From NCBI RefSeq assembly GCF_014489635.1, contig NZ_CP060828.1, positions 1,674,001 to 1,738,000 on the forward strand: DNA of 64,000 nucleotides, written 5' to 3'. Source of the DNA: Streptomyces roseirectus. GTDB taxonomy: Bacteria; Actinomycetota; Actinomycetes; Streptomycetales; Streptomycetaceae. The notes below the pieces were generated by a model. The model saw only the letters and a list, made by a program, of their open reading frames with translations, was not told where the DNA came from and made no database searches. Shown here piece by piece: positions 2,982 to 17,179 of the stretch (its first letter is position 1; every line of letters starts with the position of its first letter). The position numbers and the translations under genes are program-made.

Positions 2982-4133
2982 CTATCCCACCCGCATCGTG
3001 AACTCCAGCCCCTCCTCCGCGAGTTCGTTCAGCCACTCCTCCGCGCGGACCGCCGTCTCCGGGCCCCGGCTCAGCCCCGGCGGCAGGGAGGAGTCGAGGA
3101 TGTGGCGGACGCCGAGGGCGAGGGGGCGGGAGACGGTGTGGGCCATGGCGCTCTCCTCGGCGGTGCCGACCCGGTCGAGGAGGTAACTGCCGCTCCAGGT
3201 GCGGCCGTTCGCGCCGCGTACGGTCAACGAGACGCTGAGCACGACGCGGTCGCGGTCGGCGCGGGTCGTCGGGTAGGTCCGGGCGAGTTCCCCGGCGAGT
3301 TCGGCGATGCGCGCGTCGTCGCCCTTCTTCAGCTCGGCGAAGACCGGGGCCCACGCGTGCTGCCAGCCGTCGAGGCGGAGGGTGCCGCGCACGAACGTGT
3401 CGGCGTGCCAGCCGGGCGGCAGGTCGTACTGGGCGATGAAGGGGACGCTGTCGCGGTTGGGGTACGCCTCGAACACCTCGGCGCCCAGGGCGAGTTCGCG
3501 GGTCGCCTCCCACGGGTGGGCGGTCACCTTCTCGGCGCCGCCCTCGATGTGCCGGGCGGGTGAGCGCAGCGCGTTGAGGACCCCGAGGGGTGCCCAACTG
3601 AAGCGGTAGCGGAAGGAGTTGGGGACGGCGGGCAGGCCCCCGCAGTAGGAGGTGAGGGCGTAGTCGGCCCGGTTCTCGGCGCCGATCTCCGCGCGGGCCC
3701 GCGAGACGAGGCTGTGCGCGAAGAGGTGGTCGATGCCGGGGTCGAGGCCGGCCTCGGTGAGCACGGTCAGGCCCGCCGCCCGCGCCGCCTCGCCCTGCGC
3801 GAGCAGTTCCCCGGTGACGTAGCTGGAGCAGGCGAAGTGGGCCCGGCCCGCGAGGCACGTAGCGAGCAGCGCGGGGTGCTCGGAGGCCGGGAGCATCGAC
3901 ACCACGACGTCGCCCGGGGTGAGTTCGGCGGCCAGCGCGCCCGGGGTGTGGGCGCGGGGTTCGGCGCGGTCGGCGATGCCGAGGCGGTCCAGCACCTCGG
4001 CGGCGCGGTCGGCGGTGCGGTGCCACAGGCGGACGCGGTCGGCGTGGGCGGTGAGCGCCGTGAGGCCGCTGCCCGTGGAGAGACCGGCGCCCATCCAGTG
4101 GACCGTTCCGCTCGCGGATACCTGCTGCGCCAC
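2982..4133 (-). CDS. Saccharopine dehydrogenase/reductase-like protein (LYS9 family)
   Basis: 383 aa from the GTG at 4133, which has GGGGAGG 6 nt upstream; an in-frame ATG at 4175 lacks such a site. The N-terminus is a Rossmann fold with GAGLSTGSG, then the saccharopine dehydrogenase NADP domain (GDVVVSMLPASEHPALLATC) and the C-terminal dimer/catalytic domain with GLDPGIDHLFA and SYCGGLPAV, both characteristic of saccharopine reductases. The family interconverts saccharopine with aminoadipate semialdehyde and glutamate. It follows the lysine-forming saccharopine dehydrogenase by 66 bp on the same strand, so the pair could run lysine to aminoadipate semialdehyde, as the bifunctional AASS does in animals and plants. 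Confidence 0.85.
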   Translation of the reverse strand: MAQQVSASGTVHWMGAGLSTGSGLTALTAHADRVRLWHRTADRAAEVLDRLGIADRAEPRAHTPGALAAELTPGDVVVSMLPASEHPALLATCLAGRAHFACSSYVTGELLAQGEAARAAGLTVLTEAGLDPGIDHLFAHSLVSRARAEIGAENRADYALTSYCGGLPAVPNSFRYRFSWAPLGVLNALRSPARHIEGGAEKVTAHPWEATRELALGAEVFEAYPNRDSVPFIAQYDLPPGWHADTFVRGTLRLDGWQHAWAPVFAELKKGDDARIAELAGELARTYPTTRADRDRVVLSVSLTVRGANGRTWSGSYLLDRVGTAEESAMAHTVSRPLALGVRHILDSSLPPGLSRGPETAVRAEEWLNELAEEGLEFTMRVG

Positions 4134-4199
4134 CGCTGCCTCCCCTTCGCCTCGACGCCTTCGCCCCGACGTCACTCCCGAGACTGTGACCCTTCCCGA

Positions 4200-5249
4200 C
4201 TAGCCCTGTTTGATGCCGAGTTCACGTGACGCCGACGCGAATCGCGCCAGGCACCGCCCCCAAGGCCCGCTGTCCGTACGGAAGTCGAGGAGCTGGGGCA
4301 GCAGACTGGCCGAGAAGTCGGTGCTCGACTCCAGCGGCAGCAGCGAGGGCAGGTTGTCGATGGCGATCAGGTCGAACGGCGGCTCGTCGCGCAGCCGCCG
4401 CACGGGGTCGGCCCACTCGGTCGTCCGGTCGTACACCGGCAGCACGTTGAGCGGCGAGCCCACGTCGCAGGTCACGTCGGACACCGTGCGCAGCCGGCGG
4501 CCGGGGGCGTCGAGGTCCTGGGGCCGGACGAACGGCGGCACCGGGCTGGTCGCGAGGACGCAGTTGACGAGGAGGTCGTGGGCCAACAGGGCGTCGCGGT
4601 CGAGGTCCTGGGTCTCCGCGAGGTCCCAGGTGGTCGGTGAGATCCCGGCCGCCGCGAGGGCGTCGCGCGCACCCCGTCCGCTGCGTCCAAGGGCGCCGAT
4701 CACCAGGGCCGAGATGTCCCGGTCGCCGGAGTCAGGGCTCAGCAGCTCCCCCAGCGCCTTCTCGTCCGTCGGGGTCAACTCGGCGGCGAGGCGGCCCCGG
4801 TGGTGCAGGACGGCGAGGGCGGCGCCGAGGTAGCCCGCCCAGTAGCCGAACGCGGCGAGGCGGCGGCCGGTGTCGTCGACCAGGTACTCCAGGTCGAGCA
4901 GGGCTCCCCCGCCGGCCGCGAACCGGGTCAACAGGGCCTCGGCGTCGGGCTGTTGCTTGTAGGCGTGGCCGAAGAAGATGTGCCGGTGCGTCAACTCGTC
5001 GGGGTCGTCGGGTAGTTCCTTCAGGCCGAGGATCACCGCGTCGTCCGGCGCCGCCACCCACGAGCCGGCGGGGGCGACTTGGGCGCCCACGGCCTCGTAC
5101 TCCCCGGTGGGGAAGATCCGTTGGGGTGAGTCCTCGACCGTCAGGGTGATGCCGTGCTCGATCAGGCGGCGGGCGTCGGCGGGGACGACGGGGGTGCGGC
5201 GTTCGGTGGGGCGGGGTTCGTGACGGAGCCACAGGTGGACGGCGGTCAT
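4200..5249 (-). CDS. Saccharopine dehydrogenase, NAD+, L-lysine-forming (LYS1/LKR type)
   Basis: 349 aa. It starts with WLRHEPRPTERRTPVVPADA, the alanine-dehydrogenase/transhydrogenase N-terminal fold shared by LYS1 enzymes, with the substrate-binding PTERRTP motif. The central segment HRHIFFGHAYKQQPDAEALL contains the family's FGHAYKxQ motif, and LLDLEYLVDDTGRRLAAFGYWAGYLGAALA is the interdomain hinge. The enzyme interconverts lysine plus 2-oxoglutarate and saccharopine. Its start overlaps the stop of the FAD oxidase by 4 bp, so these genes are translationally coupled. Bacteria usually make lysine through diaminopimelate, so a catabolic role is more likely here. Confidence 0.88.
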   Translation of the reverse strand: MTAVHLWLRHEPRPTERRTPVVPADARRLIEHGITLTVEDSPQRIFPTGEYEAVGAQVAPAGSWVAAPDDAVILGLKELPDDPDELTHRHIFFGHAYKQQPDAEALLTRFAAGGGALLDLEYLVDDTGRRLAAFGYWAGYLGAALAVLHHRGRLAAELTPTDEKALGELLSPDSGDRDISALVIGALGRSGRGARDALAAAGISPTTWDLAETQDLDRDALLAHDLLVNCVLATSPVPPFVRPQDLDAPGRRLRTVSDVTCDVGSPLNVLPVYDRTTEWADPVRRLRDEPPFDLIAIDNLPSLLPLESSTDFSASLLPQLLDFRTDSGPWGRCLARFASASRELGIKQG

Positions 5250-6391
5250 ACGCGGTTGGCCTCCGGGCGCGGGGCGTCGGCGGCGAAGCGGCCGGCGCTC
5301 AGGGGGGTGACGTCCACGAAGGGTACGCGGCCGAGGACCAGGTCGCGCATCACCTCGCCGACGGCCGGCCCCTGGAGGAAGCCGTGCCCGGAGAAGCCGG
5401 TGGCGTACAGGAAGCGGGAGACCGAACTCGCCTCGCCGATCAGGGCGTTGTGGTCCGGGGTGACCTCGTACAGGCCCGCCCAGCCGCCCGTGCGGCGCAG
5501 GTCGAGCAGGGTGGGCGCCCGGTGTTCCATCGCGGCGGCGAGGCGGGGGATCCAGCGGTCGTGGGTGTCGGTGGCGAAGCCGGGGCGCTCGTCGGGGTCG
5601 GACATGCCGACCAGCAGGCCGGGGCCCTCGGGGTGGAAGTAGAAGGTGGTGGTGAAGTCGATCGTCATCGGCAGGCCGGGCGGCAGCCCGGGAAGGGCCT
5701 CGGTGACGGCGACCTGGCGGCGCAGCGGCTGGACGGGCAGGTCGACGCCGACCATCTCGCCGACCGACTTCGACCAGGCGCCGGCCGCGCAGACGACCGT
5801 GTTCGTGGTGATGCGGCCGATCGTGGTGTGCACGGCGGTGATCGTGGAGCCGCGCGTCTCGATGCCGGTGACCGCCGTGCGGCGCAGGATCCGGGCGCCG
5901 TGGGCGCGGGCGACGTCCGCGTAGCCGTGGACGACGGCCTCGGGCGTGCAGTGGCCGTCGTCCGGCGAGTAGGCGGCGGCGAGGACGCCGTCCGTGGTGA
6001 TCAGGGGGTTGAGGCGGCGGGCCTCGGCGGGGTCGATGAGGCGGCTGGGGACGCCGAGGGCGTTCTGCAGGGCGATGCCCGCCTCGAAGGAGGCGACCTC
6101 CTCGGGGGTGGTGAGGAGGAAGAGGTAGCCGGTGCGGTGCAGGTCGATGTCGTGGCCGGTGTCCTCGCCGAAGCGGGCGAACGCCTCCAGACTCCGGGCG
6201 CCCAGACGGATGTTGACCTCGTCGGAGAACTGGGCGCGGACCCCGCCCGCGGCCTTCGAGGTCGACCCGGCGGCGAGTTCGTCACGTTCGACGAGCACCA
6301 CGTCGCGGACCCCGGCGGCGGCGAGGTGACAGGCGATGCTGGTGCCGATCACCCCGCCGCCGATGACGACGACCGAGGCATGCGTGTTCAA
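5246..6391 (-). CDS. FAD-dependent DAO-family amine oxidase (sarcosine oxidase beta-like)
   Basis: 381 aa. The likely start is the TTG at 6391, with AAGGAG 8 nt before it. Residues 7-15 (VVVIGGGVIG) form the FAD dinucleotide-binding loop, and the acidic VERDELAAG follows. The motif GSTSKAAGGVRAQF and the C-terminal GLYEVTPDHNALIGE/ATGFSGHGFLQGPAVGEVM are hallmarks of sarcosine oxidase beta and related secondary-amine oxidases. In context with two saccharopine enzymes it may oxidise a cyclic or N-alkylated lysine derivative such as pipecolate; that is inference. The C-terminal half-domain is intact and no other Sox subunits are encoded nearby. Confidence 0.82.
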   Translation of the reverse strand: MNTHASVVVIGGGVIGTSIACHLAAAGVRDVVLVERDELAAGSTSKAAGGVRAQFSDEVNIRLGARSLEAFARFGEDTGHDIDLHRTGYLFLLTTPEEVASFEAGIALQNALGVPSRLIDPAEARRLNPLITTDGVLAAAYSPDDGHCTPEAVVHGYADVARAHGARILRRTAVTGIETRGSTITAVHTTIGRITTNTVVCAAGAWSKSVGEMVGVDLPVQPLRRQVAVTEALPGLPPGLPMTIDFTTTFYFHPEGPGLLVGMSDPDERPGFATDTHDRWIPRLAAAMEHRAPTLLDLRRTGGWAGLYEVTPDHNALIGEASSVSRFLYATGFSGHGFLQGPAVGEVMRDLVLGRVPFVDVTPLSAGRFAADAPRPEANRV

Positions 6392-6416
6392 GCGTGCGGC
6401 TCCTTGTGGGCGGCGG

Positions 6417-6442
6417 CCCCGGCCCGTGTGCCGAGGCCGGGG
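6417..6442 (-). terminator. Hairpin after the GTP cyclohydrolase gene
   Basis: CCCCGGCC (6417-6424) pairs perfectly with GGCCGGGG (6435-6442), 10-nt loop. It lies in the 81-bp gap between the end of the cyclohydrolase gene and the FAD oxidase gene and probably separates two transcripts. No T-run is present. Confidence 0.4.
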
Positions 6443-6472
6443 GGGTGCGACTGCCGTCCTGCCGACGGGAGT

Positions 6473-7132
6473 TCAGGACCAGTGGGCCACCGCGTCGAGG
6501 TGCGGCAGGTGGTGGTCGAGGCGTTCGCGCTTGGTGCGCAGGTAGGTGATGTTGTTCTCGCACGGCGGGATCAGCAGCGGCACCTCCTCGGCGACCTCGA
6601 TGCCGTTGTCCGTCAACGCCTCGCGCTTGCGCGGGTTGTTGGACATCAGGCGCACCGAGCGCACACCGAGGTCGCGCAGGATCTCGGCGGCGACGCCGTA
6701 GTCGCGGGCGTCGACGGGGAAGCCGAGGGCGACGTTCGCCTCGACGGTGTCCAGGCCCTCCGCCTGGAGCGCCATCGCGCGCAGCTTGCCGAGCAGTCCT
6801 ATGCCCCGGCCCTCGTGGCCGCGCAGGTAGACGACGACACCGCTGCCCTCGGCGACCACCGCGCGCAGCGCGGAGTCGAGCTGGTCGCCGCACTCGCAGT
6901 GCTGCGAGCCGAACGCGTCGCCGGTGAGGCATTCCGAGTGCAGCCGGGTCAGGACGTCCTCGGCGCCGAGTTCGCCGTAGACCAGGGCGACCTGTTCGTC
7001 ACCGCGGTCGTGGTCCATGTAACCGACGGCCTGGAATTTGCCGTAGACGGTGGGCAGAGGGGCATTCACCACGCGTTCCACGCCCGTGCGCTGCGGGGTC
7101 TTCTTGCCGAGTACACCGATTTTTTCTGTCAT
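6473..7132 (-). CDS. ribA: GTP cyclohydrolase II homologue, predicted FAPy-producing type (Met120)
   Basis: 219 aa from the ATG at 7132. The zinc site is intact: C68, C79 and C81 in SECLTGDAFGSQHCECGDQ. GHEGRGIGLLGK (105-116) is the catalytic/phosphate loop. Riboflavin-pathway enzymes have Tyr in the next motif (E. coli IRAYALQD, Tyr105); here the sequence is LRAMALQA with Met at 120. In the S. coelicolor paralogue SCO6655 the same Tyr-to-Met change is reported to stop the reaction at the formylated pyrimidine FAPy instead of releasing formate (Spoonamore, Bandarian and colleagues). I therefore predict FAPy as product. No riboflavin genes adjoin it; instead a creatininase-family gene diverges 44 bp away. 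Confidence 0.9.
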   Translation of the reverse strand: MTEKIGVLGKKTPQRTGVERVVNAPLPTVYGKFQAVGYMDHDRGDEQVALVYGELGAEDVLTRLHSECLTGDAFGSQHCECGDQLDSALRAVVAEGSGVVVYLRGHEGRGIGLLGKLRAMALQAEGLDTVEANVALGFPVDARDYGVAAEILRDLGVRSVRLMSNNPRKREALTDNGIEVAEEVPLLIPPCENNITYLRTKRERLDHHLPHLDAVAHWS

Positions 7133-7176
7133 GATCTGGTTCCTAAGAGTCCGATGGGGAGTCGAAAGGGCGGGAA

Positions 7177-7956
7177 ATGATGAGTGGTCCGGAAATACGG
7201 GCGGCGGGGCGTGGGACGGTGGCCTCGGCACTGCCGACGGACACCACCGATGACGTACGGACGCGAGGGGCGGCTGTCTCAACGCGGATCGCGGTCCTTC
7301 CCGTCGGCAGCTACGAGCAGCACGGCGCTCATCTCCCGCTGGCCACCGACACGCTGGTCGCGTGCGCCATCGCCCGGGAGATCGCGGACGCGCATCCCGT
7401 GCACCTCCTTCCGCCTGTGACCATCGCCTGCTCGCACGAGCACGCGGACTGGCCCGGGACCGTCAGCATCTCCTCCGTCACGCTGCACGCGGTGGTGCGT
7501 GACATCGCGGCGTCGCTGCGCCGTTCCGGCGTCGAGGGCCTGGTCGTGGTCAACGCGCACGGCGGGAACTACGTCCTCGGCAACGTCGTCCAGGAGGCGT
7601 CCGCGCGCGGCGAGCACCTCGCGCTCTTCCCGGCCCCGGAGGACTGGGAGGAGGCCCGCGTCGCGGCGGGGGTCGAAACCTCCCTCCTCACCGACATGCA
7701 CGCCGGTGAAATCGAGACGTCCATCCTTCTGCACGCGCATCCGGAAGTCGTCAGGCCCGGCTACGAGTCCGCCGATTTCACCGCCGACGACCGCCGTCAT
7801 CTCCTCACCTCGGGAATGTCCGCCTATACCGATTCGGGTGTCATCGGCCGGCCTTCGCTCGGCTCCGCGGAAAAGGGGGAGCGGCTTCTGGCGAGCCTCG
7901 TGGATTCCTTCGGGGCGTATTTCTCGCTGCTGAGTTCCCGGGTGTCGGGGGAATAG
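7177..7956 (+). CDS. Creatininase-family amidohydrolase, probable FAPy deformylase (ArfB-like)
   Basis: 259 aa. All metal ligands of the creatininase fold are visible: E47 and H49 in GSYEQHGAHLPL, D58 in ATDTL, H128 in NAHGGN, E178 in DMHAGEIETS. HEHADWPGT is the usual substrate-loop motif. The family includes creatininase, mycofactocin MftE and the archaeal formamide hydrolase ArfB, which removes formate from FAPy in riboflavin and F420 synthesis. Divergence from a cyclohydrolase predicted to stop at FAPy makes deformylation the best guess. The first about 33 residues look non-conserved, so a later start is possible. The 3' end overlaps the convergent membrane gene by 133 bp. Confidence 0.8.
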   Translation: MMSGPEIRAAGRGTVASALPTDTTDDVRTRGAAVSTRIAVLPVGSYEQHGAHLPLATDTLVACAIAREIADAHPVHLLPPVTIACSHEHADWPGTVSISSVTLHAVVRDIAASLRRSGVEGLVVVNAHGGNYVLGNVVQEASARGEHLALFPAPEDWEEARVAAGVETSLLTDMHAGEIETSILLHAHPEVVRPGYESADFTADDRRHLLTSGMSAYTDSGVIGRPSLGSAEKGERLLASLVDSFGAYFSLLSSRVSGE

Positions 7957-9194
7957 GGCGGTACGGACGGCGCGGGGATGTGTGACCGCGAGCGCACCCC
8001 CGCCCACCACCGCACCACCAGCACCCCGGCCCCCGGCAGCGCGGCGACGAAGCACAGCACCCCGTAGACGACCGACACGGAGAACCCCGTCTCCGCGCCC
8101 AGCCCGGCCGCGCCGAACGCCCAGGCGGTGACCCCCTCCCGGGGCCCCCACCCGCCGACGTTCAGCGGCACGCCCATCGCGAGCAGCGCCAGCACGGCGA
8201 GCGGCAGCAGCCGCACGACAGAGGTGGACGCCCCCGCGACACGCGCGGCGACGACGAACGTCGCGATGTGCCCGGCGAGCACGACCAGCGAGGACAGTGC
8301 GACGCCGGGCCCGTTGCGCCGGGACAGCAGCGCCTCCCGCGCCTCGGCCAGCATCCCCCGCACCCTTCGTCCGCGCCGGGTGAGCGGCGACGGCGTCGCG
8401 GCGGCCGGCGTCCGGTTCATCCGCACGGCGACCACCACCGCGAGCACGCCCAGCCCCGCGAGCGCGACGAGCGGCACGACGTGCCGCACCTCCCCCGCGA
8501 CCGGCGACGGCACCGCGAGCAGCACCGCGAGCCCGACGACGGCGAGCGCGAGCTGACCTGCGGCCCGTTCCCAGAACACGGCGCGCACGCCGCGTCCGAC
8601 GTCGCCCTCGCTCTGTCCGTGGCGCACCGCGCGGTGGACGTCGCCGAGGATCCCGCCGGGCAGCGCGGCGTTGAGGAACAGGGCCCGGTAGTAGTCGCCG
8701 ACGGCCGCGCCGAGCGGCAGCCGGATCTTCAGCCCGCGCGCGACGAGCGCCCAGCGCCACGCGCTGAACACGGTCGTGACGCCGCCGATCGCCAGCGCGA
8801 GCACCAGCGAGGCCGCGTCGATGCGCCGCAGCCCGTCGAGGAAGACCCCGGTGCCCATCCGCCACAGCAGCACCCCGAGGATGACGACCCCGGCGAGCGT
8901 CCCGAAGTGCGTCCGCAGCGCCCGCACCCAGGAACGCCGGCCGGGAGCACCCACGCCCTCGGCGACACCGGCGACAGCACCGGCCTGCCCAGCGACACCG
9001 GCCCTCTGATCGACGTCAACTCGCCCGGCGGCACCGGCCCTTGCCCCGGCGCCGTCCTCCCCCGCGACACCGGCCCCGTCCAGGCCGCCGTCCGCCTCAC
9101 CCCCGTCCCCCCGGGGCAGAACCTCCACGCCCCGCCCCGGACTCGCGGGCTGCACCCCACCCCCGCCGACGACACCCCCCGACCCCTCGGCCAT
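7824..9194 (-). CDS. Flippase-like integral membrane protein (UPF0104/LPG-synthase TM family)
   Basis: 456 aa from the ATG at 9194, with GAGGAG 6 nt upstream. The first about 85 residues are Gly/Ala-rich and low-complexity. Then come about eight hydrophobic helices, with the family signatures SAWRWALVARGLKI, DYYRALFLNAALPGGILGDVHRA and GVPLNVGGWGPREGVTAW. The family covers the membrane half of lysyl-phosphatidylglycerol synthase (MprF) and the archaeal AglD and related proteins, which handle lipid-linked substrates. The start overlaps the stop of the methyltransferase (TGATG), so it belongs to that operon. It probably moves or presents a lipid-linked product of the cluster. The C-terminal tail (about 45 residues) is polar and lies in the overlap with the convergent gene, so the true stop could be a recent extension. 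Confidence 0.82.
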   Translation of the reverse strand: MAEGSGGVVGGGGVQPASPGRGVEVLPRGDGGEADGGLDGAGVAGEDGAGARAGAAGRVDVDQRAGVAGQAGAVAGVAEGVGAPGRRSWVRALRTHFGTLAGVVILGVLLWRMGTGVFLDGLRRIDAASLVLALAIGGVTTVFSAWRWALVARGLKIRLPLGAAVGDYYRALFLNAALPGGILGDVHRAVRHGQSEGDVGRGVRAVFWERAAGQLALAVVGLAVLLAVPSPVAGEVRHVVPLVALAGLGVLAVVVAVRMNRTPAAATPSPLTRRGRRVRGMLAEAREALLSRRNGPGVALSSLVVLAGHIATFVVAARVAGASTSVVRLLPLAVLALLAMGVPLNVGGWGPREGVTAWAFGAAGLGAETGFSVSVVYGVLCFVAALPGAGVLVVRWWAGVRSRSHIPAPSVPPYSPDTRELSSEKYAPKESTRLARSRSPFSAEPSEGRPMTPESV

Positions 9195-10105
9195 CAGGCG
9201 CTCCTCACCGGCCGGGCCAGCGCCAGCAGGTCCGTGTGATGCACCGCCACCCGCAGTTCGCCCGCGGCGGCGGCCGCGAGCCGCGCCTGAAGGTACTCCT
9301 GCGCGCGGGCGGCGAGTTCGGGGCGTTCCTCGACGGCGGCGCCGACCCAGCCGCGCAGCCACTGGGCGGTGAGGGCGGCCTCGTCCGGCCCGAGCCGCCA
9401 GGCGCTGGGGTGCAGCTTGACGGTCGCACCCCGGGCGTCGAACGCCTCGGCGGCGTAGGTCACCGCGTCGGGCCCGAGCAGCCCGTCGCGCCGCTGGTGG
9501 GCGTTGAAGGCGTCCTGGATCTCCGCGTCCAGGGGATCGGCGGCCGACAGCTCGACCCGCCCGGCGACGGACAGCGTCAGCAGCGCGGGGCACCCGGCGC
9601 CCACGCACGCGTCGACCAGCGCGTCGATCTCCTCCCGGGTCAGCACGTCCAGCAGCGCGGACGCGGTCACCAGCGAGGCCCCGCTCAGCGCGTCCGGGGT
9701 CAGCCGGGCGACGTCCCCGCGCCGGGTCTCGACGGTCACCCGGCTGCCGTCGGCGGCGGCGCGCGGCGAGGCGACCGCCGCGAAGTGCAGCAGGTAGGGG
9801 TCGCGGTCGTGCAGCACCCAGTGCTGGGCCCCGTCGAGGCGGGGGGCGAGCCAGCGGCCCATGGAGCCGGTGCCGCAGCCCAGGTCGTGGACGACGGTCC
9901 CGGCCTTCCCGCCGGGCAGGTTCGCGAGCCGGATGCGCAGCGGGTCGAGCAGGTCCAGCGCACGCGCGCTCGCGTCGGCGGGCTCACGCAGCTGAAGCCA
10001 CTCGGGCGCGTACCGGGGCGGGTCGTCGGGCCCGCCCTCGCGCAGCCGTACGGTGGCCCGTTCCGCGACGGGCCCGGCGCCGGGGATGACGTCGGCGCTG
10101 CTCAT
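9194..10105 (-). CDS. Class I SAM-dependent methyltransferase
   Basis: 303 aa. Motif I is VHDLGCGTGSMGRW (about residues 69-82), followed by the acidic HDRDPYLLHFA (motif II region) and GDVARLTP (motif III region), all typical of class I Rossmann methyltransferases. ATGA overlap with the glycosyltransferase upstream and TGATG overlap with the membrane protein downstream put it in the middle of a coupled operon. The acceptor is unknown. In context it may methylate the pyrimidine/pterin-like moiety or the sugar. The C-terminal third (LRGWVGAAVEERPELA) is not part of the core fold and may form the acceptor lid. Confidence 0.82.
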   Translation of the reverse strand: MSSADVIPGAGPVAERATVRLREGGPDDPPRYAPEWLQLREPADASARALDLLDPLRIRLANLPGGKAGTVVHDLGCGTGSMGRWLAPRLDGAQHWVLHDRDPYLLHFAAVASPRAAADGSRVTVETRRGDVARLTPDALSGASLVTASALLDVLTREEIDALVDACVGAGCPALLTLSVAGRVELSAADPLDAEIQDAFNAHQRRDGLLGPDAVTYAAEAFDARGATVKLHPSAWRLGPDEAALTAQWLRGWVGAAVEERPELAARAQEYLQARLAAAAAGELRVAVHHTDLLALARPVRSA

Positions 10106-11334
10106 GCGGCCCTCCAGGACTCGCGGGGAAGCCGGCCGAGGACGCCGGCGAGGCTCTGGGCGGTGGTCGCCCAGCCGTTCAGCGCGGCGCGCCGGCCGCG
10201 CGCGGCGGACTTGAGGCGGCGGCGCACGTCCGCCTCCTTGAACCAGCCGCGCAGTTCGGCCACGAGGGCGGCCGGGTCCTCCGGCGGCACGAGGATCCCG
10301 GGGACACCGCCGTCGGGGGCGCGCCCGACGGCCTCGGCGACGCCGCCGACGTCCGTGGCGAGCACCGGGATGCCACGTGCGAGGGCTTCGGTGACGGCCA
10401 TGCCGTACGTCTCGGCGTACGAGGCGAGGACCATCAGGTCGGCGGCGGCGTAGCTGGCGTCGAGGGCGGCGCCGGACTTGGCGCCGGCGATCCGCAGACG
10501 GTCCTGGAGGCCGTGCCGGGCGATGAGTTCGCGCAGGTGGGCGACGTACTCGGGGTCCTGGTCGACGCCGCCGACGAGGTCGCAGGTCCACGGCAGGTCG
10601 GTCGCCGCCGCCAGCGCCTCGACCAGGCGGTGCTGGCCCTTGCGGAACGTGACGGAGGCGACGCACACGAGGTGCGAGACGCCGTCCGTGCCGGAGGCCA
10701 GCGGCGCGATGTCGGCGCCGGGCGGGGCCGTGTGCACCTTCTCGGGGGCGAGCCCGTGGTGCGAGACGAGCCGGCGCACGGCCCAGTCGCTGGTGGCGAT
10801 GACGGCGGGCACGGCCCGCAGGACGGCGCGCTCGCGGGCGTCGAGTTCGGCGGCGACCTCGGGCGCGAGGCCCGTCTCGTCGCCGAGCGGCAGGTGCACG
10901 AGGACGGCGAGCCGCAGCCGCCCGGCCTCCGGGACGACGACCTCGGGGACCCCGCAGGCGACGATCCCGTCGAGCAGGACGACCGCCCCGTCCGGGAGTT
11001 CGCGCAGCGTGCGGGCGAGGGCGTCGCGGTCGCTGTCGGCGGGCCGGGGCCAGGCGCCGGCCGCGAGGTGCTTGCGCACCTGCCAGCCGAAGCCGGGCAG
11101 GTCGAGGCAGACCCGCCGGTCGTAGGCGTTGCCGCCGCTGGGCCGGCTGAGGTCGTCGACGCCGGCGGGCAGCACGAAGTGCACGGTGCGCAGGGACATC
11201 GGGATCAGGTCGCCGTTCTTCCGTACGACGGGCTGCTGCTTGGGCACGTAGGTGAGCGCGCCGGTGTCCGGCTTCGCCGGCTTCTCCAGCTTTTCCAGCC
11301 GGACGGCCGTCCGCTCGATGGTCGTGTCGGTCAC
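10102..11334 (-). CDS. GT4-family glycosyltransferase (GT-B fold)
   Basis: 410 aa, GTG start at 11334 overlapping the upstream stop (GTGA). The C-terminal nucleotide-sugar domain is clear: [17 protein letters not shown], then the EX7E motif ETYGMAVTE in [20 protein letters not shown], and [11 protein letters not shown]. The N-terminal acceptor domain has [21 protein letters not shown], resembling glycosyltransferases that begin with a GG/SGG loop. Soluble, probably membrane-associated. With the neighbouring methyltransferase and PTPS-like gene it forms an overlapping operon, so it probably glycosylates the intermediate made from FAPy. Confidence 0.87.
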
Positions 11335-11729
11335 AGGGCACGCTCGTAACTCGCCCAGGCGATGTGCGACTCGTGCAGGGTGACCGAGAGGGCGCTGATG
11401 CCCCGGGCGCCCTCGCCGAGCGCGCCCTTGTGGATCCGGTCGGCGAGCCGGTCGGCGATGACCTTCGCCAGGAACTCGGTGGACGTGTTCACCCCGGCGA
11501 AATCTGGCTCGTTGTCCAGATTCCGGTAGTTCAGTTCCGCGACCACGGCGCCGAGCTCCTGGCTCGCGAGCCCCATGTCGACGACGATGTTGTCGTCGTC
11601 CAGCGTCTCGCGGCGGAAGGTGGCGTCCACGAGGAACGTCGCTCCGTGCAGGCGCTGCGCGGGTCCGAAGACCTCGCCGCGGAAGCTGTGGGCGATCATG
11701 ATGTGATCGCGGACGGTGACACTGAACAA
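11331..11729 (-). CDS. 6-pyruvoyl-tetrahydropterin synthase/QueD-fold protein lacking catalytic residues
   Basis: 132 aa with a TTG start at 11729 preceded by GGAGGG 7 nt upstream. The fold signature is present: IMIAHSF (H14, first zinc His), RLHGATF (H28, second), the central [11 protein letters not shown] region (matching the LDH/D region that binds substrate), PTSEFLA-like [11 protein letters not shown], and the C-terminal [14 protein letters not shown]. Two key positions differ: the catalytic Cys four residues before H28 is Ala24, and the third zinc ligand (second H of HGH) is Ala30. H9 might substitute as ligand. A classical PTPS or CPH4-synthase reaction is therefore unlikely; a new reaction on a pyrimidine or pterin nucleotide is possible. 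Confidence 0.82.
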
Positions 11730-11800
11730 CGGACGACCCTCCAGGTGCGGCGCGTCTGGTCCCCCGGACCGCTCGTGCCGGGGGATGCCGTGTAGTACGG

Positions 11801-11829
11801 CCGGCCGCTTCCCCTTGTTCAGCGGCCGG
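11801..11829. terminator. Hairpin between the dehydrogenase and PTPS-like genes
   Basis: CCGGCCGCT (11801-11809) and AGCGGCCGG (11821-11829) form a 9-bp perfect stem with an 11-nt loop in the 115-bp gap. A second 7-bp inverted repeat (11761-11767 with 11778-11784) lies closer to the PTPS-like gene. The hairpin may end or attenuate the dehydrogenase transcript, so the PTPS-like operon may have its own promoter here. Confidence 0.45.
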
Positions 11830-11844
11830 TCCTCTTTTCTCAGG

Positions 11845-12828
11845 TCAGGCGTGCGGCGCCGGGTAGCGCACCCGGTGGCACAGCGCGGGGATCTCGCCCG
11901 AGGCCAGCCTCGGCATGACCTCGGGCAGCTCGTCGAACGCGCACTCTCCGGTGATCAGCGCGTCGAGGGCGGGGTCGGCGAGCAGGTCGAGCGCGAGGGC
12001 GAGGCGGTCGGCGTAGGTGCGGCTCGCGCGCGCGGGCGCGACGGTGCCGACCTGGCTGCTGCGGATCGTCAGGCGCCGCGAGTGGAACGCCTCGCCGAGA
12101 GGCAGCGCGATGCGCCGGTCGCCGTACCAGCTGAGTTCGACGACGGTGCCCTCGGGGCGCAGGAGTTCGAGGGCGCGGGTGAGGCCGGCCTCGGTGGCGC
12201 TGGCGTGGATCACGAGGTCGAGGTCGCCGGTGGCGTCCTCGGGGAGCGCGAAGTCGATGCCGAGTTTCGCGGCGGTCTCGGCGCGGGCGGGGTCGGCGTC
12301 GACGAGCTGGGCCCGGACGCCGGGGAAGCGGGCGAGGAGGGCCGCGACGGAGCAGCCGACCATCCCGCCGCCGATGACCGCGGCGCGGTCGCCGATCATG
12401 GGGGCGGCGTCCCAGAGGGCGTTGACGGCGGTTTCCACGGTGCCGGCGAGGACGGCGCGCTCGGGGGGAACGTTTTTGGGTACGACCATCACACGGTCAG
12501 CTGGTACGACGTACCGCGTCTGGTGCGGGTACAGGCAGAACACGGTCTGGCCGACGAGGTCCGCCGGGCCCTGTTCGACCTCGCCCACATTGAGGTACCC
12601 GTACTTCACCGGGGCCGGGAAGTCGCCCTCCTGGAACGGGGCGCGCATCGCCGTGTGCTGGTTGTCCGGGACCTTGCCGCCGAAGACCAGGGTCTCGGTG
12701 CCCCGGCTGATCCCCGACCACAGCGTCCGCACCAGCACCTCGCCCTCGCCGGGCGCCGGGACGGCCGTCTCACGCAGCTCCCCCTCCCCCGGACGACTGA
12801 TCCAGAACGCACGTGCGGCGTTCTTCAT
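11845..12828 (-). CDS. MDR-family dehydrogenase without catalytic zinc site
   Basis: 327 aa, ATG at 12828 with AGGAGG 6 nt upstream. The GroES-like N-terminal domain has [17 protein letters not shown] where zinc alcohol dehydrogenases have CGTD, so the catalytic Cys is missing. The nucleotide-binding domain has [16 protein letters not shown] followed by the acidic [12 protein letters not shown], suggesting NAD(H). The pattern resembles the bacteriochlorophyllide dehydrogenase BchC branch and uncharacterised actinobacterial oxidoreductases. It diverges from the CDP-alcohol phosphatidyltransferase gene and reads toward the PTPS-like gene, so it probably acts in the same pathway, oxidising a sugar or side-chain alcohol. 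Confidence 0.78.
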
Positions 12829-12936
12829 GCGAAACCTCCTGAACGATCGGCATCCGGTTCACGTACCGAGATGTGGCACAGGCCGCGCACAGTACGCGGC
12901 GATGATCGACTCTGTCACTCGGCCGGAGGATGTGCG

Positions 12937-13725
12937 GTGGCCCTGAACAACACGTACGAGGCAAGGCTGGTCCAGCAGGAGACCGCTCTGGGAGCGGGCG
13001 CGCAGATCCTGCTGCTGGCCCTGCTGGGCTCGGTGATCGGCATGGGGACGGCGGGCTGGGCGACCGGCCTCGTCTTCGCCCTCGGCACCTGGGCCCTGCT
13101 CTCCGGCGCCTGCCACCGCTCCGGGATCCGCACGTTCGGCCCCGCCAACCGCGTCACGCTCGGCCGCGCGACCCTCGTCGGCGGGGTGACGGCCCTGGTC
13201 GCCGACTCCTTCGAGTCCGCGCCGCCGGTCACCCTGCTGGTCGGCCTCACCGCGATCGCGCTGATCCTCGACGGCGTCGACGGCAAGGTGGCGCGGCGCA
13301 CGGGGACGTCCACGCCGCTCGGCGCGCGCTTCGACATGGAGGTCGACGCGTTCCTGATCCTGGTGCTCAGCGTCTACGTGTCCACGCAGCTCGGGCCCTG
13401 GGTGCTGCTCATGGGGGCCATGCGGTACGTGTTCGTCGCCGCCGCGTACGTCTGGCCGTGGCTGAACGCCGCGCTGCCGCACAGCATGGCCCGCAAGACC
13501 GTCGCCGCGACGCAGGGGGTGTGTCTGCTGCTCGCCGGGTCGCAGTTGCTGCCCTACGCGGCGAACCTCGCGATCGCCGGGACGTCGCTGGCCGCGCTGA
13601 TCTGGTCGTTCGGACGGGACGTCCTGTGGCTGTTCCGGACGCGGCCCGGGGCCCGGGTGGCGGTGGCTGAGGCGCCGGTGGTCACGGCGGTGGCTCAGGA
13701 GACGGCGGTGCTGGCGGCGCGCTGA
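12937..13725 (+). CDS. CDP-alcohol phosphatidyltransferase family membrane protein
   Basis: 262 aa from the GTG at 12937, which has GGAGGA 6 nt upstream. The full class motif D-x2-DG-x2-AR-x8-G-x3-D-x3-D is present: DGVDGKVAR, then GARFDMEVD. About six membrane helices surround it. The enzymes transfer a phospho-alcohol from a CDP-alcohol (CDP-diacylglycerol or another CDP-alcohol) to a second alcohol. It diverges from the MDR dehydrogenase (108-bp spacer, likely holding both promoters). Being next to a glycosyltransferase and a flippase-like protein suggests it attaches the cluster product to a lipid or builds a phosphodiester. Confidence 0.88.
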   Translation: MALNNTYEARLVQQETALGAGAQILLLALLGSVIGMGTAGWATGLVFALGTWALLSGACHRSGIRTFGPANRVTLGRATLVGGVTALVADSFESAPPVTLLVGLTAIALILDGVDGKVARRTGTSTPLGARFDMEVDAFLILVLSVYVSTQLGPWVLLMGAMRYVFVAAAYVWPWLNAALPHSMARKTVAATQGVCLLLAGSQLLPYAANLAIAGTSLAALIWSFGRDVLWLFRTRPGARVAVAEAPVVTAVAQETAVLAAR

Positions 13726-13738
13726 ATCCGCAGCGGGA

Positions 13739-13770
13739 GGGCCCGGACACCGCAGGGGTGGTCCGGGCCC
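13739..13770. terminator. Rho-independent-type hairpin after the phosphatidyltransferase gene
   Basis: GGGCCCGGAC (13739-13748) pairs with GTCCGGGCCC (13761-13770), loop of 12, followed on the plus strand by TTTCGTG. It lies between convergent genes and may also serve the MFS gene. Confidence 0.75.
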
Positions 13771-13958
13771 TTTCGTGTGGGCCCGCGCGAGACCGCGGGG
13801 GCGTGTTTCCCTACGGGTCTGCTCGACTGCTGTCGCGCCGAGCGCGCCCGCGCCACCGCGCATCCTCCGGCGCCGGCGGGGTGCGGGATCGCGGCGGGCG
13901 GCCCTCTGCGCCGCACGGCGTGCCGTGGCGGCGGCCGACGCGGGCCGGCCGCGTGTCT

Positions 13959-15398
13959 TCACCCGCCTTGGCCGTTCTGGGGAATCACCGGGGCCTTGCC
14001 AGGGGCGGGCGGGGTGCCGACGGGGCTCTCGGCGGGGGCCGACCGGGCCTCGGCGGGGCTCTCGGCGAACGCGAGCCGCGTGCCGTCCGGGCCTTCGGCG
14101 GGGGCGGACGGGTTGTCGGCCGGGGTGTCGGCGCGTGCCCCGGAGTCCGCCGGCGTCCGTGCCGGCTCCGTCGGCGTGGTCCCGCCCGCGCGCGGCAGCA
14201 GTGCGATCGCCGCGACCGGCACGGCGGCCAGCACCAGCCACGGCACCGCCGCCGGCAGGCCCGTGTCGAGGAGGGTTCCCGTCGCGGAGCTGCCGATGAG
14301 CACGATCAGCCCGGAGACGGAGGACAGGGCGCCGGTGTAGAGGCCGAGGCGTCCGTCGGCCGCGAGGTCGGGCACCCACGCGCGGGCGGCGGGGGCGACG
14401 AGCATCTGCCCGAAGGTCAGCAGGACGACGAACCCGGCGGCCGGCAGCAGCCCCGCCGTCCCCTGGGCCCCGGCGGGCAGCGCGGCGGCGACGACCGCGA
14501 ACCCGGCGGCGATCAGCCCGAGCCCGCCCGCCATGGACGCGCGCAGGCTGAGCCGGTCCCCCACCCACCGCGTGACGGGCAACTGGGCGACGACGACCAG
14601 CGCCGACGACAGCGCGAACAGCCACGACAGCGGCGTCTGCGACCCGGCCGCCCGCTCCACCTCGGCGGGCAGCGCGAGGTAGAGCTGGTTGTAGGCGAGC
14701 AGGTAGGCGCCGTAGGCGCAGCACAGCGCGAGGAAGCGCCGGTTGCGCAGCATTGGCCCGACCCCGCCCTTGACCCGGGTCCGCTGCCGCCCGGGTATGT
14801 GCTGGGGCAGCAGCCAGGCGTGTCCGGCGAGGACGAGGACGAAGACCCCGGCGCCGGCCAGGCACACCGTCCGGAAGTCCACCGACAGCAGCAGCGCCCC
14901 GAGCAGCGGCCCGACGAACGCCCCGGCCTGCCCGGCGACGGTGAACAGCGCCAGCACGCGCGTGCGCGACCCGTTGCCGTCCTCCTCCCAGACGACGGCC
15001 TGGCGGGCGACCTCGCTCTCGACGGCCGGCGAGAACAGGGCGGCGGCGAACCCGATGAGCAGGACGGCGCCGATGACGGACGCGATGTGCCCGGCGAACC
15101 CGAGCCACACGAACCCGGCGATCCGCAGGACGCACCCGGCGAGGACGACGGGCCGCACCCCGTACCGGTCGGTGAGCGCGCCGCCGACCACGAACAGCCC
15201 CTGCTGGCTGAACGTCCGCAGCCCGAGCACGAACCCGACGAGCCAGCCGGCGAGCCCCATCCCGGTGCCCAGGTGTTCGGCGAGGAACGGCAGGACCGCG
15301 AAGAAGCCGACGTTGAAGGCGAGTTGGGTGAGGATCAGCAGGGGCGACAGCGGGACCTTGTCCGCGCCGGTCTTCGCCAGGGCTGTCGTCGAGGTCAT
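13959..15398 (-). CDS. MFS transporter (DHA-type exporter)
   Basis: 479 aa with about 12 hydrophobic helices. The N-terminal half has GWLVGFVLGLRTFSQQGLFV and the cytoplasmic loop GGALTDRYGVRPV, a form of the MFS G-x3-D-R-x-G-R motif. The last about 75 residues are a Pro/Ala/Glu-rich low-complexity tail (repeats of AESP/APAESP) that is probably cytoplasmic and not needed for transport. The start overlaps the stop of the permease gene by 4 bp, so it is the last gene of a GNAT-binding protein-permease-MFS operon. It is likely an efflux pump for a small amphiphilic compound; the substrate is unknown. Confidence 0.83.
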   Translation of the reverse strand: MTSTTALAKTGADKVPLSPLLILTQLAFNVGFFAVLPFLAEHLGTGMGLAGWLVGFVLGLRTFSQQGLFVVGGALTDRYGVRPVVLAGCVLRIAGFVWLGFAGHIASVIGAVLLIGFAAALFSPAVESEVARQAVVWEEDGNGSRTRVLALFTVAGQAGAFVGPLLGALLLSVDFRTVCLAGAGVFVLVLAGHAWLLPQHIPGRQRTRVKGGVGPMLRNRRFLALCCAYGAYLLAYNQLYLALPAEVERAAGSQTPLSWLFALSSALVVVAQLPVTRWVGDRLSLRASMAGGLGLIAAGFAVVAAALPAGAQGTAGLLPAAGFVVLLTFGQMLVAPAARAWVPDLAADGRLGLYTGALSSVSGLIVLIGSSATGTLLDTGLPAAVPWLVLAAVPVAAIALLPRAGGTTPTEPARTPADSGARADTPADNPSAPAEGPDGTRLAFAESPAEARSAPAESPVGTPPAPGKAPVIPQNGQGG

Positions 15399-17179
15399 CG
15401 GGCGGCTACCAACTCTCGTACAGGTTCGGTCGGTTCAGGGGCGGGCAGGTCGTCGTCCGGGCGGTTTCGGCGCCGGCCGCGCAGGCCCACGGCCGTCACC
15501 GCGAGCGCGCCGAGGAGCGCGAGGGCGGCGGCGGGGGCGAGGACGGCCCAGGGGGCGCGTTCGGCGTAGGGCTGGTTCTCGGCGAGCAGCAGCCCCCATT
15601 CCGGGGACGGCGGCTGCGCGCCGAGGCCGAGGAAGCCGAGGGTCGCGAGGGCGAGGGCGTTGCCGGGCAGGCGCAGCGCGGCGTGCCGGGCGACGGGCGG
15701 CAGGACGGCGGGCAGCACCGCGCGCCGCAGCAGGTGCGCGCGCCCGGCGCCGAGGGCGCGGGTCGCCGCGAGGTGGACGGCGGCCTTCTCCTGGGCGAGG
15801 AGCGCGGAGGTGTGCGCGGCGAGCGGCGCCCAGGCGACGACGGTCACCGCGAGCGCGGGCGTGCTCACTCCGCTGCCCCACGCGGCGGCGACCAGCAGGG
15901 CGGCGAGGACGGGCGGTACCGCGTTGACGGTGTCCACGAGCGGTCCCGACACCCTCGGCGCGAGCCCCAGCAGCACCCCGATCAGGTAGGCGGCGAGGCT
16001 GATCCCGCCCGCGAGGAGCAGCGTGTCGAACGCCCCGTGCGCGACGCGCGCCAGCAGGTCACGGCCGAGGGCGTCGGTGCCGAACGGGTGCGCGGGCGAC
16101 GGCGCCTCCAGACGCCGGGTGGTGTCGATGGCGAGGGGGTCGCGGGCCAGGCCGGCGGCGACGACGGCCGCGAGGAGTCCGCCGTACAGGAGCGGCGGGA
16201 GCCTGCGCGCGGGCGGGTCGGGGTGGTGCAGGGTGGGCAGGGCGCCGTCGCGCAGGGCGGGGCCGAGGAGGGGGCGGGCGGCGAGCCGGGCGGCGCCGGC
16301 GGTGAGGGCGGCGAGCAGGACCAGCGCGAGGGTGCCCGCCTGGAGGACGGGCAGGTCCTGGGCGAGGGCGGCCTGGAGGGTGGTGCGGCCGAGGCCGGGG
16401 ATGTCGAAGATCTGCTCCACGACGACCGCCCCGCCGGTCAGGCCGACGGCGAACAGGCCCAGGTTGGGCAGGAGTCCGGGCAGGCAGCGGCGCACCGCGT
16501 GCCGGGCGATCCGCCGGCCGGGCACCCCGCGCGCGGTCGCCGCCTTCGCCCAGGGTTCGGCGAACGCGCCGGGCAGCAGGTCGTCCATGAGCCGGCCGAG
16601 GACGGCCCCGGCGGGCAGCCCCAGCGCGAGCGCCGGCAGCACCGTCCACTTGATCCCGTACCAGCCGAGCGCGGGCAGCCAGCCGAGCTGGACGCCGACG
16701 ACGGTGGCGAGGACGGACGCGGTCAGGAACTCCGGCAGCGCGGCGAGCATCGCCGACGCGGAGCGGGCGGGCGCGTGCCCGGCGAGGGCGCGGCGGGCGC
16801 CCCGGCGCAGGGTGGGTGCGCAGACCAGGGCGGCGGTGGCGAGCGCGACCAGCAGGGCGACCGTCACCAGCAGCAGGGACGCGCCGAGCGCCTGGAGCAC
16901 CGCGGGCGTGACCTGTTCGCCGGAGATCCAGGACCGTCCGGCGTCGCCGCGCGGCAGTCCGCTCAGCCACTGGCCGAGCAGGTGCAGCGGGCCGTCGGCG
17001 AGGCCGAGCTGTGCGCGGATGGCGGCCAGGACGTCGGGGGTGGGGTCACGGTCGGCGGAGCGCGCCTTGAGGACGGTGCGCGCCGGGTCGGTGTCCGTGA
17101 GCCACGGCAGCAGGCCGATCCCGCACACCAGCCCCGCCGCGAGAGCCGCCCGCCAAGCGAGCGCCGTGACCCGTCCCAC
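15395..17179 (-). CDS. Fused peptide-type ABC permease (DppB-DppC in one chain)
   Basis: 594 aa, GTG start. Residues about 1-310 match a DppB/OppB permease (EAA loop GAFAEPWAKAATARGVPGRR, then IFDIPGLGRTTLQAALAQD). Residues about 325-594 match a DppC/OppC permease (APSPAHPFGTDALGRDLLARV, EAA loop VHLAATRALGAGRAHLLRRAVLP, then GLGAQPPSPEWGLLL). Normally these are two genes. No ATP-binding gene is present in the operon or elsewhere in the window with a dipeptide-type signature, so it must borrow ATPases or the importer is incomplete. It follows the binding protein by 4 bp. Confidence 0.87.
   Translation of the reverse strand: MGRVTALAWRAALAAGLVCGIGLLPWLTDTDPARTVLKARSADRDPTPDVLAAIRAQLGLADGPLHLLGQWLSGLPRGDAGRSWISGEQVTPAVLQALGASLLLVTVALLVALATAALVCAPTLRRGARRALAGHAPARSASAMLAALPEFLTASVLATVVGVQLGWLPALGWYGIKWTVLPALALGLPAGAVLGRLMDDLLPGAFAEPWAKAATARGVPGRRIARHAVRRCLPGLLPNLGLFAVGLTGGAVVVEQIFDIPGLGRTTLQAALAQDLPVLQAGTLALVLLAALTAGAARLAARPLLGPALRDGALPTLHHPDPPARRLPPLLYGGLLAAVVAAGLARDPLAIDTTRRLEAPSPAHPFGTDALGRDLLARVAHGAFDTLLLAGGISLAAYLIGVLLGLAPRVSGPLVDTVNAVPPVLAALLVAAAWGSGVSTPALAVTVVAWAPLAAHTSALLAQEKAAVHLAATRALGAGRAHLLRRAVLPAVLPPVARHAALRLPGNALALATLGFLGLGAQPPSPEWGLLLAENQPYAERAPWAVLAPAAALALLGALAVTAVGLRGRRRNRPDDDLPAPEPTEPVRELVAAR

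Follow-up and report, generated by a model that had tools for sequence, protein, structure and literature searches.

A gene neighbourhood conserved in six bacterial phyla and predicted to make a GTP-derived, methylated and glycosylated metabolite

The archaeal front end of riboflavin and F420 biosynthesis proceeds from the opening of GTP through the ArfB deformylase to a reductase that acts ahead of the deaminase. In PTPS and QueD enzymes, a CxxxHGH motif supplies the catalytic cysteine and zinc-binding histidines. The locus described here contains relatives of both systems and lies at positions 6473-13725 of the window (the whole stretch of DNA that was analysed; 64,000 nucleotides, positions 1,674,001 to 1,738,000 of contig NZ_CP060828.1) on the 9.95 Mb chromosome of Streptomyces roseirectus. 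An earlier note on this DNA had named eight gene families at the locus, and a Pfam profile search placed all eight predicted domains above their cut-offs: (i) a GTP cyclohydrolase II (RibA); (ii) a creatininase-family hydrolase; (iii) a UPF0104 flippase-like membrane protein; (iv) a class I methyltransferase (MT); (v) a GT4 glycosyltransferase; (vi) a PTPS-like T-fold protein; (vii) a zinc-less MDR dehydrogenase; and (viii) a CDP-alcohol phosphatidyltransferase (CDP-OH PT). Comparison of gene neighbourhoods shows that these genes, together with a reductase (RibD_C) as a ninth family, recur as neighbours across six phyla and form one conserved unit. As judged from the encoded families, the unit probably makes a GTP-derived ribityl-pyrimidine or pterin head group that would undergo methylation and glycosylation and, in some lineages, attachment to a lipid or export. 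The conserved neighbourhoods thus support the single pathway proposed in the earlier note, in which a GTP-derived head group of pyrimidine or pterin kind receives sugar and methyl groups and genes of membrane type take part.

Within Streptomyces, the PTPS-like gene is present in 22 of 61 genomes (its own included), and the same 22 carry a RibA of at least 67% identity and a creatininase of at least 65% identity. Every genome except the 79%-complete G001 (60 of 61) also has weaker RibA matches (54-61%), and five genomes without the PTPS-like gene have a creatininase at 56-59%. Three of the 22 carry RibA and creatininase on a different contig from PTPS. Among 19 larger Streptomyces loci of the cluster, 17 hold PTPS and all 17 of these hold the eight families, the remaining two being contig pieces with RibA, creatininase and UPF0104. 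Because of shared ancestry, these genomes are not independent, and lysine-type genes also flank 12 of the 19 loci, as would be expected of unrelated neighbours kept together by descent. That explanation is nevertheless barely credible, and is already contradicted by the recurrence of the same neighbours, in varied order and orientation, across six phyla.

In a sample of 296 genomes of Actinomycetota, the PTPS-like gene was found in other members of the phylum, including Rubrobacter, with MDR and GT4 adjoining. A cross-phylum scan of genome contigs gave at least 565 confirmed relatives, and the best 80 by similarity, which were analysed, come from Actinomycetota, Pseudomonadota, Chloroflexota, Gemmatimonadota, Acidobacteriota and Planctomycetota. 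Where there is room for the neighbour, 72 of 75 loci have MDR immediately upstream of PTPS in the same orientation, and 73 of 76 have GT4 immediately downstream (exceptions to either adjacency: L073, L078, L080, L082, and L088). The families found in the 80 loci are PTPS (80), GT4 (78), MDR (76), RibD_C (63), MT (49, plus five of a Rubrobacter type), CDP-OH PT (40), RibA (30), UPF0104 (28), FkbM methyltransferase (22), creatininase (21), membrane sulfatase (12), MdoH (12), and FolB (7); these counts are lower bounds, since several loci are short. All eight families of the window occur together in 15 of the 80, and with RibD_C in 14, namely 13 Halomonas-group records and Methyloversatilis.

Since these 80 loci were picked by similarity, an even sample of Pseudomonadota was drawn as a less biased check. 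This PTPS was present in 27 of 398 genomes at 50-100% identity (the query genome included), with a sharp drop from 134 to 45 bits at the next match. Within about 1.5 kb, MDR stands beside PTPS in 27 of 27, and GT4 follows directly in 24, lies beyond MDR in one, and is missing from two. In contrast, five of five canonical PTPS controls in the same run were without MDR and GT4 (L256-L258, which are the three of 14 weaker Pseudomonadota matches given loci, and L037 and L039 from Actinomycetota). The co-occurrence of PTPS, RibA and creatininase, and the cross-phylum neighbours, exceed chance. A gene set peculiar to this strain, against which the earlier note had set its proposal, is therefore not what the neighbourhood survey found: with the Streptomyces co-occurrence and the loci of six phyla, conservation extends far past the strain. 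Pairwise distances between cluster proteins are also correlated (rho of 0.81 for PTPS-MDR, 0.74 for PTPS-GT4, and 0.54 for PTPS-RibD_C, values reached in 0 of 500 permutations); shared host descent would give the same correlations.

Large parts of the set are also carried on plasmids of Thiodictyon, Methylosinus, Agrobacterium, Microbacterium, Neorhizobium, Peteryoungia, Palleronia, and S. fungicidicus (11 of 20 matched plasmid records were examined, one of them without annotation). On the Palleronia plasmid, the order RibA-MDR-PTPS-MT-RibD is co-directional, with gaps of less than 45 bases or overlaps. Large cluster parts are likewise found on pNCHU2750c (L263) and pSGAir0570_2 (L173), one of which is typed as conjugative and the other as mobilizable, so that the set can move. 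Among viral contigs and phages, no relative was found.

RibD_C is a core step of the pathway. The earlier note had listed no riboflavin gene, which is true inside the cluster of the window; however, the 63 related loci counted above hold a stand-alone RibD_C (no deaminase), four Streptomyces clusters also have a RibD_C, and a further copy lies elsewhere in the same genome as the window. In two relatives, PF01872 scores 144 and 189 bits, and the best solved relative of the L116 protein (6p8c, 97 bits) is named 2,5-diamino-6-ribosylamino-4(3H)-pyrimidinone 5'-phosphate reductase. Among NCBIfam models, the L047 protein scores best against the archaeal reductase TIGR01508, and those of L116 and L057 against the RibD C-terminal domain; TIGR01508 gives 128, 112, and 156 bits in three relatives, below its cut-off of 186, and by that measure they do not qualify as equivalents of the archaeal enzyme. 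Beside RibD_C, a cytochrome b561-like gene is found in four loci (L172 14011-14544, L262 13055-13582, L170 13528-14085, and L146 14030-14539), a hint of a membrane redox link, and in Rubrobacter loci (e.g., L057 6271-6645) a FolB-like gene is divergent to RibD_C.

In Streptomyces, RibD_C is inside the cluster in those four genomes and absent from 16 clusters read. A second-site copy (E of at most 1e-40 to the L047 protein) is present in 16 of 16 genomes whose cluster lacks RibD_C, in none of the four with RibD_C in the cluster, and in six of 39 cluster-less genomes. For two more cluster-bearing genomes, the cluster interior fell outside the reading; G017 has a RibD_C copy and the 79%-complete G001 has none. 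This distribution suggests that the RibD_C step moved to another locus in this Streptomyces branch. In the genome of the window, this copy is fused to a deaminase and lies at 5.17 Mb (L150 7802-10247, about 5.166-5.168 Mb), close to a Tyr-type RibA; the RibD reductase comes first and the deaminase second, reversed from the usual order.

The PTPS-like protein (11331-11729, minus strand) passes PF01242 with 81.3 bits (cut-off 22.4), and the altered PTPS fold described in the earlier note is borne out by its motif, AQRLHGA, in which Ala stands at the catalytic Cys and HGA replaces HGH; motif and alignment show that the Glu near the C-terminus is kept. The protein thus has neither the catalytic Cys of CxxxHGH nor the full set of three zinc His, and scores only 36.2 bits against NCBIfam QueD (cut-off 89.25). 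Its subfamily is marked by the motif FGPAQ.LHGAT, with the catalytic Cys and one zinc His lost. In 100 PTPS loci read, 71 have HGA, 28 have HGH, and one is cut; 26 of the 28 HGH loci, the majority of them in Rubrobacter and Chloroflexi records, have FG[PS]A, and two are canonical. The S. coelicolor orthologue of the window protein is SCO6650, whose crystal structure (PDB 3d7j, 259 bits) was deposited as uncharacterized. The structure is reportedly zinc-free, and the protein is said to have no PTPS activity.

RibA, RibD_C and PTPS belong to the families of known cofactor routes (riboflavin, preQ0/queuosine, and folate), and the genes could in principle be spare copies for ordinary metabolism. 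This is very improbable, since the same genome has a canonical QueD, a QueE-like gene and FolE elsewhere, as well as five other RibA copies; the PTPS-like protein has lost its catalytic Cys and a zinc ligand; and GT4, MT and MDR are, to our knowledge, foreign to those routes. No RibB/E/H or QueC/QueE partner gene was found among the open reading frames at 4000-17000 and the cluster domains. The riboflavin, preQ0 and folate readings were ruled out on gene content and the lost PTPS residues. The other PTPS of this genome is a canonical QueD (CGRLHGH), which adjoins a QueE-like radical SAM gene and FolE (L259 1489-3210, at 8.38 Mb) in a 7-deazapurine-type cluster apart from the locus.

The MDR (11845-12828, minus strand; PF00107 (ADH_zinc_N), 33 bits) is zinc-less, as had been claimed: none of 20 aligned rows has a Cys at what we take to be the catalytic zinc position, which sets it apart from the zinc MDR alcohol/polyol dehydrogenases with their catalytic and structural zinc cysteines. 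Threonine, ketose, and sorbitol dehydrogenases are among its relatives of known structure.

RibA (6473-7132, minus strand, ATG at 7132; PF00925, 225 bits) carries Met at the position of the Tyr in the RAYALQ segment of E. coli GTP cyclohydrolase II, and it keeps the cysteines of HSECLTGD..C.CG. Met is found in 21 of 21 Streptomyces loci read (the window, L128, and L151-L169), whereas Tyr is kept in 33 of 33 RibAs read at PTPS loci outside Streptomyces, a count that takes in only part of the RibAs in later fetched loci and for which part of the readings used the window RibA as query. Among the six RibA copies of this genome, that of the window has Met, four have Tyr, and the sixth (L006) gave no clear reading. 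The S. coelicolor protein SCO6655 was reportedly assayed, has Met for the catalytic Tyr, and is said to release FAPy, a formylated pyrimidine. The Met-type RibA of the earlier note is thus confirmed in the window; as every Met form read comes from Streptomyces, FAPy does not characterise the cluster in general.

The creatininase-family hydrolase (7177-7956, plus strand; PF02633, 212 bits) had been taken for an ArfB-like deformylase. Against the ArfB model NF033501 it scores 38.5 bits, and a Halomonas-type relative 26.7 bits, with a cut-off of 180, and ArfB identity was ruled out on this score. No other NCBIfam equivalog reached its cut-off (MftE 135.5 of 172, creatininase 96.7 of 235, and IolN 55.7 of 245 bits), the protein being nearer to MftE than to ArfB. 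Moreover, related creatininases adjoin a Tyr-type RibA in 15 loci.

These 15 RibAs all have HSAC for HSEC. In PTPS loci with both RibA and creatininase, RibA is of the Met or HSAC type in 34 of 34; in 18 cluster loci with RibA and no creatininase seen, 15 RibAs have HSEC and Tyr, two have HSSC (L121 and L172), and one, at a contig end, has HCAC (L133). L060 and L062, with a canonical PTPS and another RibA, were left out of these counts. HSAC or HSSC stands for HSEC beside the zinc cysteine in the cluster RibAs of L116, L149, L184, L172, and L121. The pairing of HSAC with creatininase is suggestive but is not diagnostic. A rule by which creatininase pairs with a formyl-retaining RibA was fitted by the Gemmatimonadota genome of L144 (HSAC, L184); it was dropped because another RibA of an acidobacterial genome reads HSRC (L177), because Caenispirillum (L183) has a creatininase in the cluster and a RibA with HSEC and Tyr, because Thioalkalivibrio RibAs read HSNC, and because the 34 represent few lineages.

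A FAPy-based pathway in all versions of the cluster, in which RibA would stop at the formylated pyrimidine and an ArfB-like creatininase would deformylate it, draws on the Met-type RibA that accompanies creatininase in 19 of 19 Streptomyces loci holding PTPS, RibA and creatininase, on the FAPy reportedly released by SCO6655, and on HSAC in all 15 loci with creatininase and RibA outside Streptomyces. With Tyr in every RibA read outside that genus, an ArfB score far below the cut-off, and an HSAC position that L177 and L183 show not to be diagnostic, it is unlikely. At most, the FAPy/ArfB reading would describe a variant peculiar to Streptomyces.

Downstream of PTPS are GT4 (10102-11334, minus strand; PF00534 (Glycos_transf_1), 98 bits) and MT (9194-10105, minus strand; PF13649 (Methyltransf_25), 31 bits), the latter conserved in a 20-row alignment; a PDB search gave no informative relative of MT. 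The membrane genes are UPF0104 (LPG_synthase_TM; 7824-9194, minus strand, ATG at 9194 and stop at 7824; PF03706, 106 bits on 7960-9167) and CDP-OH PT (12937-13725, plus strand, probable GTG start at 12937; PF01066, 53 bits on 13075-13725), both scored against Pfam over stretches slightly shorter than the final gene edges. By eye, against motifs known to us, the GT4 E-x7-E, the CDP-OH PT signature, the MT glycine motif and the RibA zinc cysteines are intact. The models closest to CDP-OH PT, by weak scores, are those of pgsA or archaetidylinositol-phosphate synthase, enzymes that act on phosphorylated polyols.

With these weak matches, and with CDP-OH PT, UPF0104, FkbM, sulfatase and MdoH in 40, 28, 22, 12, and 12 of the 80 loci, the genes could be regarded as an envelope glycolipid cluster, in which GT4 and these families make a surface lipid or glucan and RibA, RibD_C and PTPS have a side role. 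We consider this rather improbable, as the most constant genes are PTPS, GT4, MDR and RibD_C (80, 78, 76, and 63 of 80), and small RibA-MDR-PTPS-MT-RibD_C units exist without an adjoining GT4. FkbM and MdoH glucan glucosyltransferase adjoin the cluster in Halomonas-group loci (e.g., L083 15275-18111), and MdoH also does so on the Methylosinus and Neorhizobium plasmids. Rhodobacterales clusters are flanked by inositol-monophosphatase-like and sugar-kinase genes (L265 5171-5974 and 10997-11887; L174 8834-9754), possible side-chain phosphate enzymes.

In the window, re-read edges place MDR-PTPS-GT4-MT-UPF0104 in a single minus-strand run, with overlaps of 4 bases (PTPS/GT4), 4 bases (GT4/MT), and 1 base (MT/UPF0104) and a gap of 115 bases between MDR and PTPS. 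The five coupled or close genes of the earlier note are therefore contiguous as described, although the minus strand holds six genes in total with RibA. The UPF0104 frame extends to 7824 and overlaps the 3' end of the convergent creatininase gene. Both ends diverge, as had been stated: re-read start codons leave intergenic stretches at 7133-7176, between RibA (7132, minus) and creatininase (7177, plus), and at 12829-12936, between MDR and CDP-OH PT. After RibA on the same strand, 2982-6391 holds FAD oxidoreductase, saccharopine-dehydrogenase-like, and saccharopine-reductase-like genes. At least one of the three accompanies the cluster in 12 of 19 fetched Streptomyces loci, against none of the seven others, and they are probably a separate lysine-type operon.

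The orthologous locus of S. coelicolor is SCO6650-SCO6655, whose six consecutive tags, going by their numbers, correspond to the genes that run from PTPS to RibA; so far, only single proteins from it have been studied. SCO6655 is listed as a GTP cyclohydrolase II in Table 2 of PMC2853524, where it is anticorrelated with predicted flux (r -0.61), as is SCO2687, another GTP cyclohydrolase II (r -0.52); the genes on that list are described as mostly up in stationary phase. In Table 3 of PMC3610822, SCO6652, which would by tag order be the methyltransferase (with SCO6651 as GT4), has log2 changes of 0.8 in substrate, 4.3 in aerial, and 4.1 in sporulating mycelium relative to first mycelium. These tabulated values are hints as to the expression of the locus.

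The assignment of the genes to one pathway follows from the Streptomyces co-occurrence, the cross-phylum MDR and GT4 adjacency, the contrast with the controls, RibD_C, the correlated distances, and the expression hints. In the proposed pathway, RibA would open GTP. Loss of the formyl group would fall to RibA where it has Tyr and, in Streptomyces, perhaps to another enzyme, with creatininase as the candidate. RibD_C would then reduce the ribosylamine to 2,5-diamino-6-ribitylamino-4(3H)-pyrimidinone 5'-phosphate, and the zinc-less, polyol-dehydrogenase-like MDR would oxidise the ribityl chain. The PTPS-like protein, which keeps the pterin-anchoring Glu and has neither zinc site nor catalytic Cys, may bind the product and shape or close a ring. 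MT and GT4 would yield a methylated glycoside, and where CDP-OH PT and UPF0104 are present, as in the window, the conjugate or a partner lipid could be made on the membrane and moved across.

A bolder version is a second pterin route without GTP cyclohydrolase I, in which MDR would oxidise C2' of the ribityl chain after RibA and RibD_C had acted, the zinc-free PTPS-like protein would close the ring, and the pterin would be methylated, glycosylated and fixed to lipid via CDP-OH PT and UPF0104 as a surface or redox cofactor. Oxidation at C2' would give the same ketone as the Amadori rearrangement of GTP cyclohydrolase I. That enzyme is present in six of six cluster-bearing genomes tested, which would make the route an addition rather than a replacement and counts somewhat against it; we regard it as a long shot.

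Several observations weigh against a single pathway of the form preferred here, from GTP through RibD_C, MDR and PTPS to a methylated glycoside. GT4 is not directly in the unit in two of the 27 sampled loci and on two Rhodobacterales plasmids, among the plasmids without GT4 being that of Rhodobacteraceae SC52, and one Streptomyces plasmid (L175 12001-12399) has a PTPS gene of the subfamily alone, with no MDR or GT4 annotated nearby. The membrane part is not universal either, since neither CDP-OH PT nor UPF0104 was seen in the stretches read of Rubrobacter and Acetobacteraceae-type loci. Lastly, the second-site RibD_C of the window's genome may mark a separate pathway, given its deaminase fusion and the other RibA adjoining it. 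Nonetheless, a nine-family set in six phyla, including a model-organism locus, points to a widespread metabolite or cofactor, for which we know of no product assignment. The orphan structure 3D7J and the Streptomyces Met-type cyclohydrolase would gain a shared pathway, with RibD_C and MDR named as partner enzymes.

The earlier note had called the cluster undescribed. This is true of the whole, as no description of the cluster or its product was found in the literature searched (most subscription journals were outside the reach of the search), but not of every part, since a crystal structure of the PTPS-like protein exists and an assay of SCO6655 is reported. Like the archaeal riboflavin/F420 front end, the set joins RibA-type GTP opening, a creatininase-fold hydrolase and a stand-alone RibD_C reductase; unlike it, the cyclohydrolase is the bacterial type II, the creatininase is below the ArfB cut-off, and MDR, PTPS-like, GT4 and MT genes are added. 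With QueD and the pterin PTPS enzymes it shares the PF01242 T-fold and the conserved Glu, whereas here Ala replaces the catalytic Cys, HGA is present in 71 of 100 loci, and the gene neighbours differ. A GTP-derived head group and a glycosyltransferase are also reportedly combined in vicine and other pyrimidine glucosides and in cyanobacterial and other pterin glycosides, in whose routes we know of no RibD_C-MDR-PTPS-like set. The toxoflavin pathway, which is said to use RibA- and RibD-like enzymes with a methyltransferase, similarly diverts a riboflavin front end to a methylated pyrimidine product, and we know of no PTPS-like, MDR, GT4 or membrane genes in it. Set beside these systems, the protein families of the set are known, as are, in part, single Streptomyces proteins.

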